NCBI GenBank assembly: GCA_036500345.1
Contig: DASYCE010000032.1
Location: 1 to 64,000, forward strand
Direction: 5' to 3'
DNA: 64,000 nt
DNA from: Gemmatimonadales bacterium
Lineage (GTDB): Bacteria > Gemmatimonadota > Gemmatimonadetes > Gemmatimonadales > GWC2-71-9
Shown: piece after piece, positions 3,596-21,654 of the stretch
Layout of the letters: each line of letters begins with the position of its first letter
Position numbering within the stretch: position 1 is the first letter of the stretch
Translations under genes and position numbers: made by a program
The notes under the pieces: generated by a model
Told to the model about the DNA's origin: nothing
What the model saw: the letters and a program-made list of their open reading frames with translations, nothing else
The model's database searches: none

Positions 3596-3775
3596 ATGCT
3601 GCGCTGGGCACTCGGATTCTTCATTGTCGCGATCATCGCCGCCATCTTTGGCTTCGGCGGGATTGCGGTCGCATCAGCCGGAATCGCGAAGATCCTCTTC
3701 TTCATCTTCCTGATCCTGTTCCTGCTCTCGCTGCTGACGGGGCTCGTGTCGGGGCGGCGCGTTCCGCCGCCGTGA
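3596..3775 (+). CDS. DUF1328-type small membrane protein
   Basis: A 59-residue protein starting [20 protein letters not shown] with two hydrophobic helices and the pattern W-xx-xFxxxAxIAAxFGFGGIA, typical of the DUF1328/YtjA family of inner-membrane proteins often induced by envelope or oxidative stress. A ribosome site TTGGAGG sits five bases before the ATG. It is divergent from padR with about 180 bases between the start codons. Function is unknown. Confidence 0.9.
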
Positions 3776-3798: not shown

Positions 3799-4203
3799 TC
3801 ACTCCCAGAGGTCGGCGGCGAGGATCCGGACCGCCACCTCGCCGTGCGAGGTGTTCTTCCCGCCGCTGAGCCAGGCGGGAAGATGATCGAACGCACCGCC
3901 CCGATCGGCCGGCTGGACCACACCGTTGAGCACCAGCCAGCGGCCCGATTGGCGGTCGGCGTAGGTGAGCAGCACGTCCGACGACCGGCGCAGCTGCGAC
4001 ATCAGCGACGCATCCCCTGCCACGAAGACCCGATCAGACTCGCCCGGCCTTACGCGCACCAGCGATGCGCGAAGAATGCCCTGCGAATCTCGGGACGTCA
4101 GGATCGCCTCGGGGGAGTGGGCGACGAGATCGTGAACCTGCGCCATTTCCTGACGCCGACGATCGCGTGATCTGGTCCCTACTTCAGCTTCAGGCATCCT
4201 CAT
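3799..4203 (-). CDS. Pyridoxamine 5'-phosphate oxidase-like FMN split-barrel protein
   Basis: A 134-residue protein resembling general-stress FMN-binding split-barrel proteins: AHSPEAILTSRDSQGILRASLVRV is the first strand pair and RVFVAGDASLMSQLRRSSDVLLTYADRQSGRWLVLNG matches the family core (hydrolysis/oxidase-like beta-barrel binding FMN or F420). The C-terminal extension is short. The ATG used has a CAGGGG site nine bases upstream; a second ATG at residue 20 is possible. It converges on the DUF1328 gene. The enzymatic substrate cannot be told from sequence. Confidence 0.75.
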   Translation of the reverse strand: MRMPEAEVGTRSRDRRRQEMAQVHDLVAHSPEAILTSRDSQGILRASLVRVRPGESDRVFVAGDASLMSQLRRSSDVLLTYADRQSGRWLVLNGVVQPADRGGAFDHLPAWLSGGKNTSHGEVAVRILAADLWE

Positions 4204-4242
4204 TATCAGGCCCCTGACAGTTTAGTGTGTCACCAAAGCGAA

Positions 4243-4308
4243 GCGGGCGCGTCCCTGAACCATCTCGGTTCATCGGTCGCGCCCGCATCGTCCGGGGCCC
4301 AGCCCCGG
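4243..4308. repeat. Two consecutive hairpins between divergent genes
   Basis: First hairpin: arms GCGGGCGCG (4243-4251) and CGCGCCCGC (4278-4286) with an inner stem TGAACC/GGTTCA (4256-4261/4267-4272). Second hairpin: CCGGGG/CCCCGG (4292-4297/4303-4308). They lie in the 228-base space between the divergent FMN-protein gene and the kinase-like gene, where a simple terminator is not expected. They may be a leader attenuator or small RNA. Confidence 0.55.
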
Positions 4309-4431
4309 CGTGATCGAGCGGATGGCGCACCTGCAGCCATCCCTGTGTTGTGCGTTGCAGCTGAGAGTATCAGGCGACGATTCGAGAACCGCAAGGGGTG
4401 ACAGCAGGATGATGACGGGCGATCGTTAGGG

Positions 4432-5118
4432 ATGGCAACTTCCCCGGAGGAAATGGATCACGACACCTCGCGCGAGAGCGTCGCGCGGGAGGTGGAGTGT
4501 CTCTGCACCATCGGCGCGATCGCCGGCCGGGTGGCGCATGAGATCAACAATCCGCTCGCCGGGGTCCACAACTCGTTCCGGCTGGTCAAGGATGCCATCC
4601 CGCAGAGCCACCCGCACTTCGCCTACGTCGCGGCGATCGAGCGGCAGATCCAGCGCATCGCCGCCGTCACCCGCCGCTTCGCTGATACCTACAGCGCCGA
4701 GGCCGATAGCGCCGTCGGTGTGGCGGTGTCGGCGATCGTCGGCGGCGCAGTACAGATGGCGGTGCAGGCGATCGGCACGGGAACGCCTCCGGTCGAAATT
4801 CTCAACGCCGTCCATCTTCCCTTTCCCCAGGCGGCCGGACTCCTCCGCCACGTCCTGATCCCGGGGTTCGGGGCCGCGATCCGCGCCGCCGATCCCGCGA
4901 CCAGCGTGACGATCGACACTCGCATTCCCAGCGGGGTCCTGATCGTGGAAGTGCGTTATCTGGCGATACTGTCGTCTCATCCTCCAGAGCTCGATGCCCA
5001 CGCGCAGCGACTTCTCGCGGCGCTCGGCGGCACGACCGAACTCCATACCGAAGGTGCCCAGATGACTGTACTCCAGGTCCGGATCCCGTTCGATCGGGTC
5101 GCGGGGGAAACGTCGTGA
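4432..5118 (+). CDS. Histidine-kinase-like protein with intact H-box and degenerate ATPase domain
   Basis: A 228-residue soluble protein. Residues 25-70 form a DHp-like dimerisation helix with the phospho-acceptor motif GRVAHEINNPLAG (His36). The C-terminal half keeps the outline of an HATPase domain (LRHVLIPGFGAAIRA where an N-box is expected; LLAALGGTTELHTEGA before the last strand), but the N-box Asn is absent and the DxGxG and GxGLG ATP-binding loops are missing. It therefore probably cannot autophosphorylate and may be a histidine phosphotransferase, in the manner of Caulobacter ChpT, or a phosphatase. It overlaps the response regulator by GTGA, so the two are translationally coupled. 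Confidence 0.75.
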   Translation: MATSPEEMDHDTSRESVAREVECLCTIGAIAGRVAHEINNPLAGVHNSFRLVKDAIPQSHPHFAYVAAIERQIQRIAAVTRRFADTYSAEADSAVGVAVSAIVGGAVQMAVQAIGTGTPPVEILNAVHLPFPQAAGLLRHVLIPGFGAAIRAADPATSVTIDTRIPSGVLIVEVRYLAILSSHPPELDAHAQRLLAALGGTTELHTEGAQMTVLQVRIPFDRVAGETS

Positions 5119-5852
5119 ATTCCCGGGGACGAATTCTCCTCGCCGACGACGAGGACACCTTTCTGCAGTCGACCGCGGAACTCCTCCGGAAGGAAGGGTA
5201 TTCGGTCGGCACCGCGCCCGACGCGGCGTCGGCGCTTGCCGCGGTCCAGGGCGGCTCGTTCGACCTGGTGGTCAGCGACCTCGAGATGCCAGGCAACGAG
5301 AATCTCGCGCTGGTGCGCCGGCTCGCCGAGGAAGCCGGGGGATTGCCGGTCATCATCCTGACCGGTTTTCCGTCGACCGAATCGGCGATCGCGTCAATCG
5401 AGCTTCCCGTCGCCGCGTATCTGCGGAAACCCGTCGCCTGGGACGACCTGCTGGTCCGGATCGAGGGCGCGATCGCCCGCTTCCGCGCCTATCGCAGCAT
5501 GCGCCGCACCGAGGAGCAACTCGAGGCGTGGCGCGACGAATTCCACCGGGCCACCACCCCAAACCAGACGACCAAGCAGGCCGCGGGCGCCCAGATCGAC
5601 GCCTTCCTCGCCCTCACGCTGCGCAACGTGATGGGATCGCTCAGCAATCTCGAGACCCTCGGCCAGGCGCTCAGCGGCAGGGAAGTGGTCCGCGGATCAC
5701 CGTGCCAGCTGATCAACTGTCCGCGGGGATTGCAACTGCAGCAGGCGGTTCGCGAAACGATCGCGGTGCTCGAAGAGACCAAGGGGTCGTTCAAATCGAA
5801 GACCTTGGCAACACTTCGCGAGCGTCTCGAGCTCCTGCTCGAGGTCGTCTGA
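5115..5852 (+). CDS. Response regulator with C-terminal helical domain
   Basis: A 245-residue protein with a complete receiver domain at residues 5-120: acidic pair D11/D12, phospho-acceptor D55 in VVSDLEMPG, T83 and K105 (YLRKPV). A linker with a coiled-coil tendency (RRTEEQLEAWRDEF) follows, then a C-terminal block (LQQAVRETIAVLEETKGSFK and SKTLATLRERLELLL) that resembles a short helical tail recurrent in bacterial PAS/receiver proteins. There is no recognisable DNA-binding or enzymatic output. The GTG start overlaps the stop of the kinase-like gene, making His36 of that protein the likely phosphodonor or phosphatase partner. Confidence 0.85.
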   Translation: MNSRGRILLADDEDTFLQSTAELLRKEGYSVGTAPDAASALAAVQGGSFDLVVSDLEMPGNENLALVRRLAEEAGGLPVIILTGFPSTESAIASIELPVAAYLRKPVAWDDLLVRIEGAIARFRAYRSMRRTEEQLEAWRDEFHRATTPNQTTKQAAGAQIDAFLALTLRNVMGSLSNLETLGQALSGREVVRGSPCQLINCPRGLQLQQAVRETIAVLEETKGSFKSKTLATLRERLELLLEVV

Positions 5853-16529: not shown

Positions 16530-18806
16530 ATGCACCCCCCAGTCCAGGCGGTGAGCGGCCTCTTCAAGGCTGTCCTCATCATCGGCCCTGTCGTCGAATG
16601 GGCGTCGGCGCTCCTCCTTGTGGGCGCCTTCGTGCTGCTGCTGCCGCTCTCCTCGCAGCGGCGGCTGGTGGTGATCTGGCTGACGGCCTGGGCAGCGCAG
16701 GCGTTCTCCCTGACCTATCCGGCGCTCGAGTCGATCGGGCAGATCGTCCATTCCGCTGGTGGTCCGGGGCTCGGTATGTGGGCCACGATCATCCTCCCGT
16801 TCTTCTGGCCGGCGCGGTTCCTCTTCATTGCCGCCGTCGGTTTTGGCGGCCTGTCCGCCGCCGGTCGCCGGGCCCCGGTGCACATCGAGCGGAGCGCGCT
16901 CATCGCCGTGGCGATCTTCGGCATCGGCCTCGGCGTTCTGGATGCAGACCGGATCGGCGGCGTGGTCGAGGCAATTGCGACGCCGCTGGTCTTCTTCGGT
17001 GCCGCGCAATTCATCTTTACCGCCGCCGTCGGCCCGCGATTTCGCGGACTCACCTTCCTCGGCGTTGTCACCACGCTGTACGGCACGCTGGCGACCTGCT
17101 ATCTGATCGACAAGCTGTCCCCCGGTTCGACCGGCTCCCTGATGACGCTGATCCACGTGGTGCGATTCTCGGCGTTGTACGGCGATGCCATCGCATTGGC
17201 ACTCCTTGGCGTCGGGGTGATCGTGGTGATCGTCCAGGAAGCCTTCCTCGATGTGATCGAGGCACACGAGAAGCGCATTCGCGCCGTCGCCGAATCGGAA
17301 TTCCGTCTCAACGACATTATCCAGGCGGCGCAGGAAGCGATCGTCACCTTCGACGCCGGCGGGCGAATCGAACTGGCCAATGAAGGCGCTGCCCTGTTGC
17401 TCGGTGTCGAACCCGGCGCACTCGTCGGCCAGCCGATCAGCGGGGTGATCGATCGTCCCACCGAATCGGTCCTCGACCTGATGCACGAGGCCGAAGTCCG
17501 CGCCAACCGCGACCTGATCACCTACCCCGCCTCCGGGATCCGGGTCGACGGTGAACGGTTCCCGATCGAATTCACCGTCGGGCGGCTTCGCAACGCCGAG
17601 AAACCCGGCGGCGTCGTCGTCATCCGCGACCTCACCCTCCAGCAGGCGATGCTGGCGGAGCGGGAGGAATTCGAGCGGAAGATGGCGGAGTCGGAGAAGA
17701 TGATGGCGATCGGCCGCGTCGTCTCCGGAGTGGCACACGAGCTCAACAACCCGCTCGCCGTCGTCCTGGGTGAAAGCGAACAGCTCGCCGAAACTGCACC
17801 GGGGGGCGAAGTACGCACCGGTCTCCGGATGATCCACGAACAGGCCAATCGCGCGCGCCACATCATTCGCGACCTTCTCGCGTTCGTGCGTCATCGCGAC
17901 GACCAGCGCGAGGAGATCAATCCGGTGCATCTCGTCGAGCGGACCGTTGCAACGCTGCGTCCGGTGGCCGAGGCTCGAAGCGTGACCCTGACGGCCGACA
18001 TCCCCGATCGTATGCACGCGATCCGTGTCGATCCTGCCGCAATCGAGCAGGTGCTCGTCAACTTGATCGACAACGCGTTCGATGCGGTGCCGGCCGGTGG
18101 CGCTGTCCGGGTTCGCATCCGGATCGCCGGCGATCGGGTGGAGTTGATCGTCGACGATACCGGTCCCGGCATCCCCGACGAACTGGTCGGCAAGGTGTTC
18201 GAGCCGTTCTACACCACGAAGGAGACGGGGCGCGGGCCGGGACTCGGCCTGTCGGTCTCGTTCGGAATCGCCGAACAGCATGACGGTTCGCTTCGGCTGG
18301 AAAACCGTCCCGCGAGCGGCATCGGCGCGCGCTTCATTTTGTCGCTCCCTTCCGCAGGCCCGGTTGCGGACACGACGCCGGCGATGAAGCGTCCCTTTCC
18401 CTCGCCGCCGCTCCGCGACGGCAAGGCGGCCGAAGTGATGCTGATCGACGATGAGCCGGCCGTCCGCGCAACGCTTGCCAAGCTCTTCGCTCGCACCGGA
18501 TGGCAGGTGCGCCAGGCCGCCAGTGGTCACGAGGCGATCGAGTGGTTGGCTCAGGTGTCCGACAGCGACGCACCGGTCGTGATCCTTTGCGACCTCAAGA
18601 TGCCGGGAATGGGCGGCCAGGAATTCCATCGTGAGATTTCCCGAACGCGCCCCGCGCTGGCGAAGCGGGTGATCTTCGTCACTGGAGACGCCGTCGAGTC
18701 GGTATCCAGCGGGTTCATCGCGGCGTCAGGTTGCCAGGTCGTGGAGAAACCATTTACGGTCGCCGAGATCGCTCGCGCCGTAAGCACCACGGTCAACGGC
18801 GAGTAA
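16530..18806 (+). CDS. Hybrid sensor histidine kinase (7TM-PAS-HisKA-HATPase-REC), copy 1
   Basis: A 758-residue inner-membrane kinase. Residues 1-235 have about seven hydrophobic helices with no large periplasmic loop; a PAS domain follows at about 255-380 (IIQAAQEAIVTFDAGGRIEL); the H-box is VVSGVAHELNNPLAVVLGES with H403; the ATPase has LVNLIDNAFDAV (N-box), DDTGPGIP and GPGLGLSVS; the C-terminal receiver has D688 in LCDLKMPGMGG. It should relay phosphate from H403 to its own receiver, then to an unknown histidine. It shares length, order and much sequence with the kinase at 19.4 kb. There is no cognate output gene adjacent. Confidence 0.93.
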   Translation: MHPPVQAVSGLFKAVLIIGPVVEWASALLLVGAFVLLLPLSSQRRLVVIWLTAWAAQAFSLTYPALESIGQIVHSAGGPGLGMWATIILPFFWPARFLFIAAVGFGGLSAAGRRAPVHIERSALIAVAIFGIGLGVLDADRIGGVVEAIATPLVFFGAAQFIFTAAVGPRFRGLTFLGVVTTLYGTLATCYLIDKLSPGSTGSLMTLIHVVRFSALYGDAIALALLGVGVIVVIVQEAFLDVIEAHEKRIRAVAESEFRLNDIIQAAQEAIVTFDAGGRIELANEGAALLLGVEPGALVGQPISGVIDRPTESVLDLMHEAEVRANRDLITYPASGIRVDGERFPIEFTVGRLRNAEKPGGVVVIRDLTLQQAMLAEREEFERKMAESEKMMAIGRVVSGVAHELNNPLAVVLGESEQLAETAPGGEVRTGLRMIHEQANRARHIIRDLLAFVRHRDDQREEINPVHLVERTVATLRPVAEARSVTLTADIPDRMHAIRVDPAAIEQVLVNLIDNAFDAVPAGGAVRVRIRIAGDRVELIVDDTGPGIPDELVGKVFEPFYTTKETGRGPGLGLSVSFGIAEQHDGSLRLENRPASGIGARFILSLPSAGPVADTTPAMKRPFPSPPLRDGKAAEVMLIDDEPAVRATLAKLFARTGWQVRQAASGHEAIEWLAQVSDSDAPVVILCDLKMPGMGGQEFHREISRTRPALAKRVIFVTGDAVESVSSGFIAASGCQVVEKPFTVAEIARAVSTTVNGE

Positions 18807-19377: not shown

Positions 19378-21654
19378 ATGGCCTACTCGCCGCTCGACTT
19401 GATGGGGCTGGTGGTACAGTGGGTGAGTTCCCTCCTGCTGTTGCTTCTTTTCTATCGTGTCGGCCGTTTTGGCGCCCGGCGGCGGACGCTCCGGATCTGG
19501 ATGGCTGCATGGGCGGCTCAGGTCGCAGCGATCACCGGATTTGCCCTCCAGTCGCTCGCGGTCCTGATCGGGCATCCGCTGGCGACAGCCGGCGCATGGA
19601 TCGTCATCGACGATTTCTACGTCCCCGGAAAGCTGGTCTTCGACGGCCTCATCGCGCTCGGCGCGATGCAGGCGATCGGCCGCGAGGTCAACCGGAAGAT
19701 GATTCGGTGGGTCGTCCTGTCGCTGCTCGCGGTCGGTATCGCGGCGGTGCTCGTCGATTCTCGCGCCCTGACCGGCGGCCTCGAGGTTGGCGTCACCGTT
19801 GTTGTCTTCGCCGGCGCAGCGATCGCGGTTTTCCGCACCGTGCGCGACGAGGACCCCTCGCGACTCGCATTCCTCGCCGCGGCACTCGCGCTCTTTGGTA
19901 CCGTCACGACGATCTATCTCATCGGCGATTACTTCGGACCGCTGCCGGGAGACCTCGGCGCGTTCATCGGTGCCGTCAACAATTCGTCCGGATACGGCGA
20001 CGGACTGGTCTCGGCGGTTCTCGGTGCCGCCGTGATCATCCTGATCGTCGATGACGCCTTCCGCGCCGCCGATCGCGCGCGCGGCGAGCGGTTGCGTGAT
20101 CTCGCGGCATCGGAAGCACGGCTCACAGGCGTCATCGAGGCGGCGCGCGAAGCGATCCTCACGGTGGGGCCGGATGGACGGATTGACCTTGCCAATGCGA
20201 CCGCCGAGCGACGGTTCGGTGTGCGGCGCGGCGGCGCGCTGGGGCGGCCGCTCAGCGACTTCATCACCACCAGCGATCCACTGCACCAGCTCATCGAGGC
20301 GTCGTCGGCCGGCGATCGGACCAGCGCGTCGCTGACCGGCGAAGGTCGCCGCGACGACGGCACCATCTTCCCGGTCGAACTGACCCTCGGCGCCATCGAG
20401 CGTGATGGCCGCTCCGGTGCCGTCGCGATCATTCGCGATCTGACCGCCCGTCGAGCCGCGGACGCGGAACGAGAGGCATTCGAGCGTCGCATGGCGGAAT
20501 CGGAAAAGATGCTCGCCATCGGTCGCGTCGTCTCCGGCGTGGCACACGAGCTCAACAATCCGCTTGCCGTCGTGCTGGGGCAGAGCGAACAACTCGTCGA
20601 TTCGGCGAGTGCCGCCGACACGCGCGACGGCCTTCGACTGATCAATGAGCAGGCCCACCGCGCGCGGCGGATCGTGCGAGACCTTCTCGCCTTCGTTCAC
20701 CGCCGCGATGAAGTGCACGAGCCGGTCGATCTCAGTGACCTCATCACCCGCGTCGTCGCCGCGCAGCACGGCCGAGCGGATGAGCACGGCGTGTCGATCG
20801 TGACGGCGATCGATGGCGAGCCGTCCGTGGTGCTTGCCGGACGACTCGCCGTCGAGCAGGCGCTGGTCAACCTGATCGACAACGGACTCGACGCCGCCGG
20901 CCGCGGCGGCAGGGTGCGAATCGCCATCGGCCGCCGCGGAGAGCAGGCGGAGATTCACGTGGAGGACAGCGGCAGCGGCGTTCCCGACGAGCTTGTGCCG
21001 CGGATCTTCGAACCATTCTTCACCACCAAGCCGACGGGGCAGGGGACGGGACTCGGACTTGCCGTCTCCCTCGGCGCGGTGGAACGCCACGGCGGGTCGC
21101 TCCGGCTCGAAAACCGTCCCGCCCCGGGAATCGGCGCGCGCTTCATCGCGGCGTTTCCGCTCGACCAGCAGCCGCATGGCGCCGCCTCCGAGCCTCGATC
21201 GGGACGCCACAGGATCACCACGCTGCCACGCCCGATCGCCCGCTCCGACGGCGCGGTCGCCGAAACGATGCTGATTGACGATGAAGCAGCGGTGCGATCG
21301 ACGCTGTCGCGAATCTTTCAGCGCGGCGGTTGGCGCGTGCGTGAGGCGGCAACCGGAGAGGAAGCGTTGCACTGGCTGCTGCAGGTCCCTGAAAGCGCCG
21401 CACCCGATCTGCTCCTCTGTGATCTCAAGATGCCGGGACTGAGCGGCCGCGATGTGTACGCCCATCTTCAGCAACAGCGCCCGGCGTTGCTCGATCGATT
21501 GATCTTCGTCACCGGCGACGTGGCCGAGCCCGGGACCGCGGCGTTTCTCAAGGGGACCGGGCGTCCCGTCGTGGAGAAGCCGTTCACGGTGAGCGAAATT
21601 GCCGAGGCGGTCGAAGCGGTGCTGCATCCATCACCCGTTTCGTCCGAAGGATGA
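19378..21654 (+). CDS. Hybrid sensor histidine kinase (7TM-PAS-HisKA-HATPase-REC), copy 2
   Basis: A 758-residue kinase, same length and domain order as the one at 16.5 kb. Membrane domain at 1-230, PAS at about 245-365 (VIEAAREAILTVGPDGRIDL), H-box VVSGVAHELNNPLAVVLGQS with H390, ATPase LVNLIDNGLDAA, DSGSGVP and GTGLGLAVS, receiver D682 in LCDLKMPGLSG. The catalytic half is highly alike in the two copies while the membrane half has diverged, which suggests duplication followed by change of signal input. The frame is also open on the opposite strand through codon bias only. Confidence 0.93.
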   Translation: MAYSPLDLMGLVVQWVSSLLLLLLFYRVGRFGARRRTLRIWMAAWAAQVAAITGFALQSLAVLIGHPLATAGAWIVIDDFYVPGKLVFDGLIALGAMQAIGREVNRKMIRWVVLSLLAVGIAAVLVDSRALTGGLEVGVTVVVFAGAAIAVFRTVRDEDPSRLAFLAAALALFGTVTTIYLIGDYFGPLPGDLGAFIGAVNNSSGYGDGLVSAVLGAAVIILIVDDAFRAADRARGERLRDLAASEARLTGVIEAAREAILTVGPDGRIDLANATAERRFGVRRGGALGRPLSDFITTSDPLHQLIEASSAGDRTSASLTGEGRRDDGTIFPVELTLGAIERDGRSGAVAIIRDLTARRAADAEREAFERRMAESEKMLAIGRVVSGVAHELNNPLAVVLGQSEQLVDSASAADTRDGLRLINEQAHRARRIVRDLLAFVHRRDEVHEPVDLSDLITRVVAAQHGRADEHGVSIVTAIDGEPSVVLAGRLAVEQALVNLIDNGLDAAGRGGRVRIAIGRRGEQAEIHVEDSGSGVPDELVPRIFEPFFTTKPTGQGTGLGLAVSLGAVERHGGSLRLENRPAPGIGARFIAAFPLDQQPHGAASEPRSGRHRITTLPRPIARSDGAVAETMLIDDEAAVRSTLSRIFQRGGWRVREAATGEEALHWLLQVPESAAPDLLLCDLKMPGLSGRDVYAHLQQQRPALLDRLIFVTGDVAEPGTAAFLKGTGRPVVEKPFTVSEIAEAVEAVLHPSPVSSEG

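Follow-up and report, generated by a model that had tools for sequence, protein, structure and literature searches.

A reduced, catalytically dead histidine kinase, possibly retained as a pseudokinase beside its response regulator, in a Gemmatimonadales bacterium

Phosphotransferases of the ChpT, Spo0B and PhyT kind derive from kinases and are believed to have arisen as those kinases decayed. ChpT of Caulobacter joins a DHp domain to an ATPase-like domain that does not bind ATP, and Spo0B of Bacillus is a dimeric phosphotransferase derived from a kinase. In the PhyT/PhyP pair of Sphingomonas melonis, PhyT has a degenerate ATPase domain, keeps the phospho-accepting histidine within an HRxxN motif as well as a membrane-anchored sensor, and is encoded next to a response regulator. 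This degenerate kinase transfers phosphate and binds its regulator, and phosphatase activity was not seen for it (PMC5898713). In the Caulobacter pseudokinase DivL, the kinase fold is kept for binding of a response regulator and a tyrosine takes the place of the histidine (PMC4211667). The window, by which we mean the whole 64,000-nucleotide stretch of Gemmatimonadales DNA that was analyzed, encodes a gene pair that can be compared with these systems:

4432-5118, + strand: reduced, catalytically dead histidine kinase of 228 aa (open reading frame, HisKA as the only Pfam match, alignment with intact orthologues)
4480-4689, + strand: its DHp domain, residues 17-86 (profile built for the family; identity to intact kinases of family f1)
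4690-5115, + strand: its degenerate ATPase-like region, residues 87-228 (no N-box and no G1; lid and G2 deleted)
5115-5118, + strand: GTGA overlap of the regulator start with the stop of the kinase remnant (sequence)
5115-5852, + strand: response regulator of 245 aa (Pfam Response_reg, 77.5 bits)
5592-5849, + strand: conserved helical C-terminal domain of the regulator, residues 160-245 (alignment; profile matches in the phylum)

The original prediction described the 228-aa protein as keeping a phospho-acceptor H-box while having lost the N-box and both glycine loops, and as translationally coupled to a receiver gene. These points held up. His36 (codon 4537-4539) lies within AHEINNPLAG and opens an HExxN motif (H36-E37-x-x-N40); an alternative start at Met8 (position 4453) leads to the same conclusions. 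HisKA was the sole Pfam match of the protein, at 26.6 bits and thus just below the cut-off of 26.9, and a DHp profile built from intact kinases of the family scored 114 bits. HATPase_c gave no match at E≤1. The canonical HPt domain (PF01627) was not listed for the protein in the Pfam scan either, and the protein is not one of the HPt hits of the genome. In the alignment with intact orthologues, the N-box NLVQNAxDAS of the relatives is replaced by IPGFGAAIRA and their DEGPGI by YLAILS, and nothing is left of the lid, the F-box or the G2 region. Because the N- and G-boxes are absent, autophosphorylation of the 228-aa protein would not be expected. The stop/start overlap at 5115-5118 couples this catalytically dead, DHp-containing protein to the regulator gene.

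The same prediction called the architecture ChpT-like, which stands as an analogy of layout: the protein is about as long as ChpT and likewise consists of a DHp domain followed by an ATPase-like region. By sequence, neither the ChpT family model (HPTransfase) nor the Spo0B families were matched in Pfam at E≤1, where HisKA alone was listed, and the proteins most closely related to it are ordinary PAS kinases encoded at this position in other genomes. The parallel with Spo0B likewise lies in layout. PhyT is the best functional parallel, although it differs in its sensor and in its HRxxN motif, and the 228-aa protein differs from DivL in having kept the histidine. A single-sequence structure model of the protein was poor (pLDDT 55.6); it suggests three helices at the start, followed at the end by an alpha-beta-beta-alpha-beta-beta arrangement. 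A second single-sequence model was also poor (pLDDT 51.0). Most of the best Foldseek matches to the poor model were kinase DHp-ATPase structures, and ChpT was a weak match at rank 45 (E 0.014). Z scores from VIA-align were not specific, reaching 8.4 on ribosomal protein S6, and therefore show a common arrangement only. The model is too poor to carry a claim about the fold.

The origin of the protein is clearer from its relatives. When 101 genomes of the window's family were searched with each protein of the pair, five orthologues of the regulator were recovered at 61-63% identity, each with a kinase upstream. The upstream gene could be read at 17 other loci, and at all 17 it is a kinase directly upstream of the regulator with an AHE(I/L)NN H-box. 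All but one of these kinases are larger than 228 aa, and 15 have complete N- and G-boxes in open frames of 442-1128 aa; the kinase in genome G033 is cut by a contig end. In the kinases of G074, G028 and G009, PAS regions come first, and the N-, G1-, F- and G2-boxes are all complete. Since every one of the 17 loci has a kinase in this place, the window protein belongs to no new family but is a reduced kinase; by position and sequence it is the reduced version of its regulator's own kinase. The PAS histidine kinases of this locus (G074, G028, G009 and the f2 genomes) share with it the position upstream of an orthologous regulator and, in f1, 54-64% DHp identity, but are much longer and have an N-box, G-boxes and an ATP lid as well as PAS sensor regions. 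A dead form of 228 aa without a sensor was found in the window and, among the 17 other loci, only in G055, which is another species of the genus. Both reduced copies and every orthologue read have the His and the HExxN motif. A scan of genome contigs with the 228-aa protein, which evolves fast, turned up a single match of 40 residues, in Zooshikella. As a separate observation, the reading frame of the G033 kinase (L103) shifts close to the G2-box, beyond which the kinase goes on in a different frame, possibly through an assembly error or a fresh mutation.

The regulator is, judged by its alignment, not a receiver-only protein. Its receiver spans residues 7-116, with D11, D12, D55, T83 and K105 invariant in orthologues. 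In both lineages with the reduced kinase the regulator is conserved as elsewhere, with all phosphorylation residues intact. It had been predicted to be output-free, a label to be dropped because the C-terminal helical domain of about 85 aa is at least as conserved as the receiver (66-72% against 61-66% identity to f1 orthologues). The domain carries the motifs CxLxxCPR and TKxxFKSK, with Cys197 and Cys202 within CQLINCPRG. Among 395 genomes from the phylum, its profile matched 29, all but one marginal match falling in two families of one order; in the window's family, 9 of the 102 genomes have a match. The window row of this profile began with V where the sequence has I, which does not affect the outcome. 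No relatives of the domain were found in Pfam, NCBIfam or the PDB, and no plasmid relative was found. It also occurs in a stand-alone 122-aa open frame in G066 (domain at G066:C2:78241-78462) and in a divergent regulator of G078 (domain at G078:C173:5724-5876). A 90-aa fragment of the domain in G054 (G054:C132:1269-1511, L105, minus strand) is apparently decayed, and the system may be vanishing in another genus.

Conservation is distributed very unevenly along the kinase remnant. The window DHp domain is 54-64% identical to those of intact f1 kinases, and that of G055 is 44-50% identical to intact kinases, with 79.7 bits against the profile from intact kinases. Intact kinases among themselves, with one close f2 pair set aside, share 66-81% in the DHp domain and 42-56% in the ATPase region. 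The ATPase-like regions of the window and of G055 are each only 19-25% identical to intact kinases (20-24% for the window against those of f1), and the two reduced copies are 18% identical to each other there. Against the family profile, the ATPase region of the window scored 9.0 bits, a small margin over the best of 1000 shuffles (7.1), and that of G055 scored 19.4 bits (best of 1000 shuffles, 5.6). In the alignment, G055 has RHVLQHAIEE in place of NLVQNAxDAS, WSASGPS in place of DEGPGI, and a shortened lid.

These values bear on whether the gene could simply be a pseudogene in slow decay, functionless since the loss of its sensor and held open by chance and by the regulator's need for translational coupling. 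Near-random identity in the ATPase region, with a window copy barely above shuffles, is what such decay would leave, and the patchy occurrence of the pair across the genus and the decayed regulator fragment in G054 fit it as well; in the window, the GTGA overlap could itself select for an open frame. However, the window DHp domain is far better kept than the ATPase region, and both reduced frames are open, without a stop, in two diverged lineages. When neutral evolution was simulated to the observed divergence of the ATPase region, with indels not modelled, about 5% of runs per lineage had no stop, so two open frames by chance are unlikely, which is a modest argument. Moreover, the remnant in G055 does not overlap its regulator, and coupling therefore does not explain the open frame there. 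We consider slow decay rather unlikely, yet a serious rival.

We lean, at slightly better than even confidence, toward the view that the 228-aa protein descends, in degenerate form, from the PAS sensor kinase of the regulator and still acts on the regulator, through His-Asp phosphotransfer or docking. Its sensor half would have disappeared and its ATPase half would have eroded, but the DHp domain was kept with its phospho-acceptor histidine and regulator-docking helices. Because the DHp domain and the HExxN motif are kept, the protein would still dimerize and dock the regulator. By His-Asp phosphotransfer, phosphate might then be brought to the regulator from another phosphorylated receiver, such as that of a hybrid kinase, or be drained from it. 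The kinase at all 17 loci, the retained His and HExxN motif, DHp scores far above ATPase scores, a regulator evolving at a normal rate, the open frames and the locus context shared with G055 all count for a retained pseudokinase. An ATPase-like region almost without measurable constraint, the dispensability of the system in the genus and the poor structure model count against it. At the sequence level, relaying, draining and holding the phosphate would look the same.

Two more specific versions of this retained function can be weighed. The protein might act as a brake that only dephosphorylates or sequesters a regulator that receives its phosphate from small phosphodonors or from a different kinase, and we regard this as somewhat unlikely. 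The HExxN position is used for dephosphorylation in HisKA kinases, and the motif is kept here. PhyT binds and holds its unphosphorylated regulator, as a sequestering protein would, but the phosphatase activity that the other form of brake requires was not seen for PhyT. The second version is a ChpT-style relay, in which one of a pair of twin hybrid kinases in the window, or another hybrid kinase, phosphorylates its own receiver, from which His36 accepts the phosphate and donates it to the regulator. The likelihoods we attach to brake and relay overlap with that of the retained pseudokinase, of which both are special cases. The twin kinases are:

16530-18806, + strand: hybrid kinase 1, PAS-HisKA-HATPase-receiver, candidate phosphodonor (Pfam; orthologues)
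19378-21654, + strand: hybrid kinase 2, 45% identical to hybrid kinase 1, candidate phosphodonor (Pfam)

When the window protein was aligned to the twin kinases with MAFFT, its ATPase region came out misaligned, and this alignment was left unused. The relay has precedents in PhyT and ChpT, and a genome search found, at its sensitivity, no free-standing HPt, the four HPt domains above the cut-off all lying in frames of at least 541 aa. Both genomes with the dead form carry the hybrid kinase, as does one of the eight other genomes of the genus (Fisher p about 0.07), a distribution that is compatible with a relay, in cases too few to support one. Several observations pull the other way. Orphan hybrid kinases are common; in G055 the hybrid kinase and the pair lie on different contigs, and its hybrid-kinase match has a TGA within the aligned stretch; in G090 the hybrid occurs but the pair does not, and in G028 it occurs together with the pair and an intact kinase. 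The predicted relay, for which the twin kinases, ending in receivers, would need a phosphotransfer partner, is possible; with no free-standing HPt found and with the hybrid also in one genome without the dead form, it is weakly supported, and we think a relay doubtful. A broader history also seems unlikely to us: a histidine kinase would have been caught becoming an ATP-independent phosphotransferase within one genus, having lost its sensor beside a regulator that stayed and whose input passed to hybrid kinases, with the intact, reduced and lost states found in living relatives. As intact, reduced dead and absent states occur in that genus, the early steps of the change from kinase to phosphotransferase would be testable side by side.

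The surroundings of the two reduced copies add to the history of the pair. Two further features precede it in the window:

3799-4203, - strand: divergent pyridoxamine-oxidase-like gene (weak Pfam match; synteny marker)
4205-4345, + strand: structured leader with predicted hairpins (fold z -7.25), between the divergent gene and the pair

Relatives of the pyridoxamine-oxidase-like gene were found by tblastn at the same place in the G055 locus (30-34%), and no tblastn match was found in the G074 stretch. The leader in G055 matches over 48 bp at 83% identity, with a fold z of -2.3 there; no other good copy was found in the genus and no Rfam family was matched. The order of divergent gene, leader element, kinase remnant and regulator is thus common to the window and G055. 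A small DUF1328 membrane protein is encoded at 3596-3775 of the window, and a similar gene adjoins the regulator in G033.

The C-terminal domain of the regulator is absent from seven of ten genomes of the genus, and since the pair is apparently absent from them too, the system is dispensable. In an RpoB tree, G074, which has the intact kinase, branches before a clade of the window, G035, G055 and G086 (98/97), and the window is sister to G035, which is without the regulator's C-terminal domain. Sisterhood of G055 and G000, the latter handle denoting the window genome, was rejected in this tree (p 0.0004), both lying in a clade without G074. The regulator tree groups G055 with G074 (86/91), yet a grouping of G000 with G055 was not rejected (p 0.44). 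A single reduction followed by losses would be consistent with the RpoB tree and the shared context, and two separate reductions are possible. The first RpoB trees had been spoiled by antisense frames and an aberrant G067 sequence and were replaced. The RpoB of G067 (L124) has a very long branch unlike the rest of the genus and may come from a contaminant contig.
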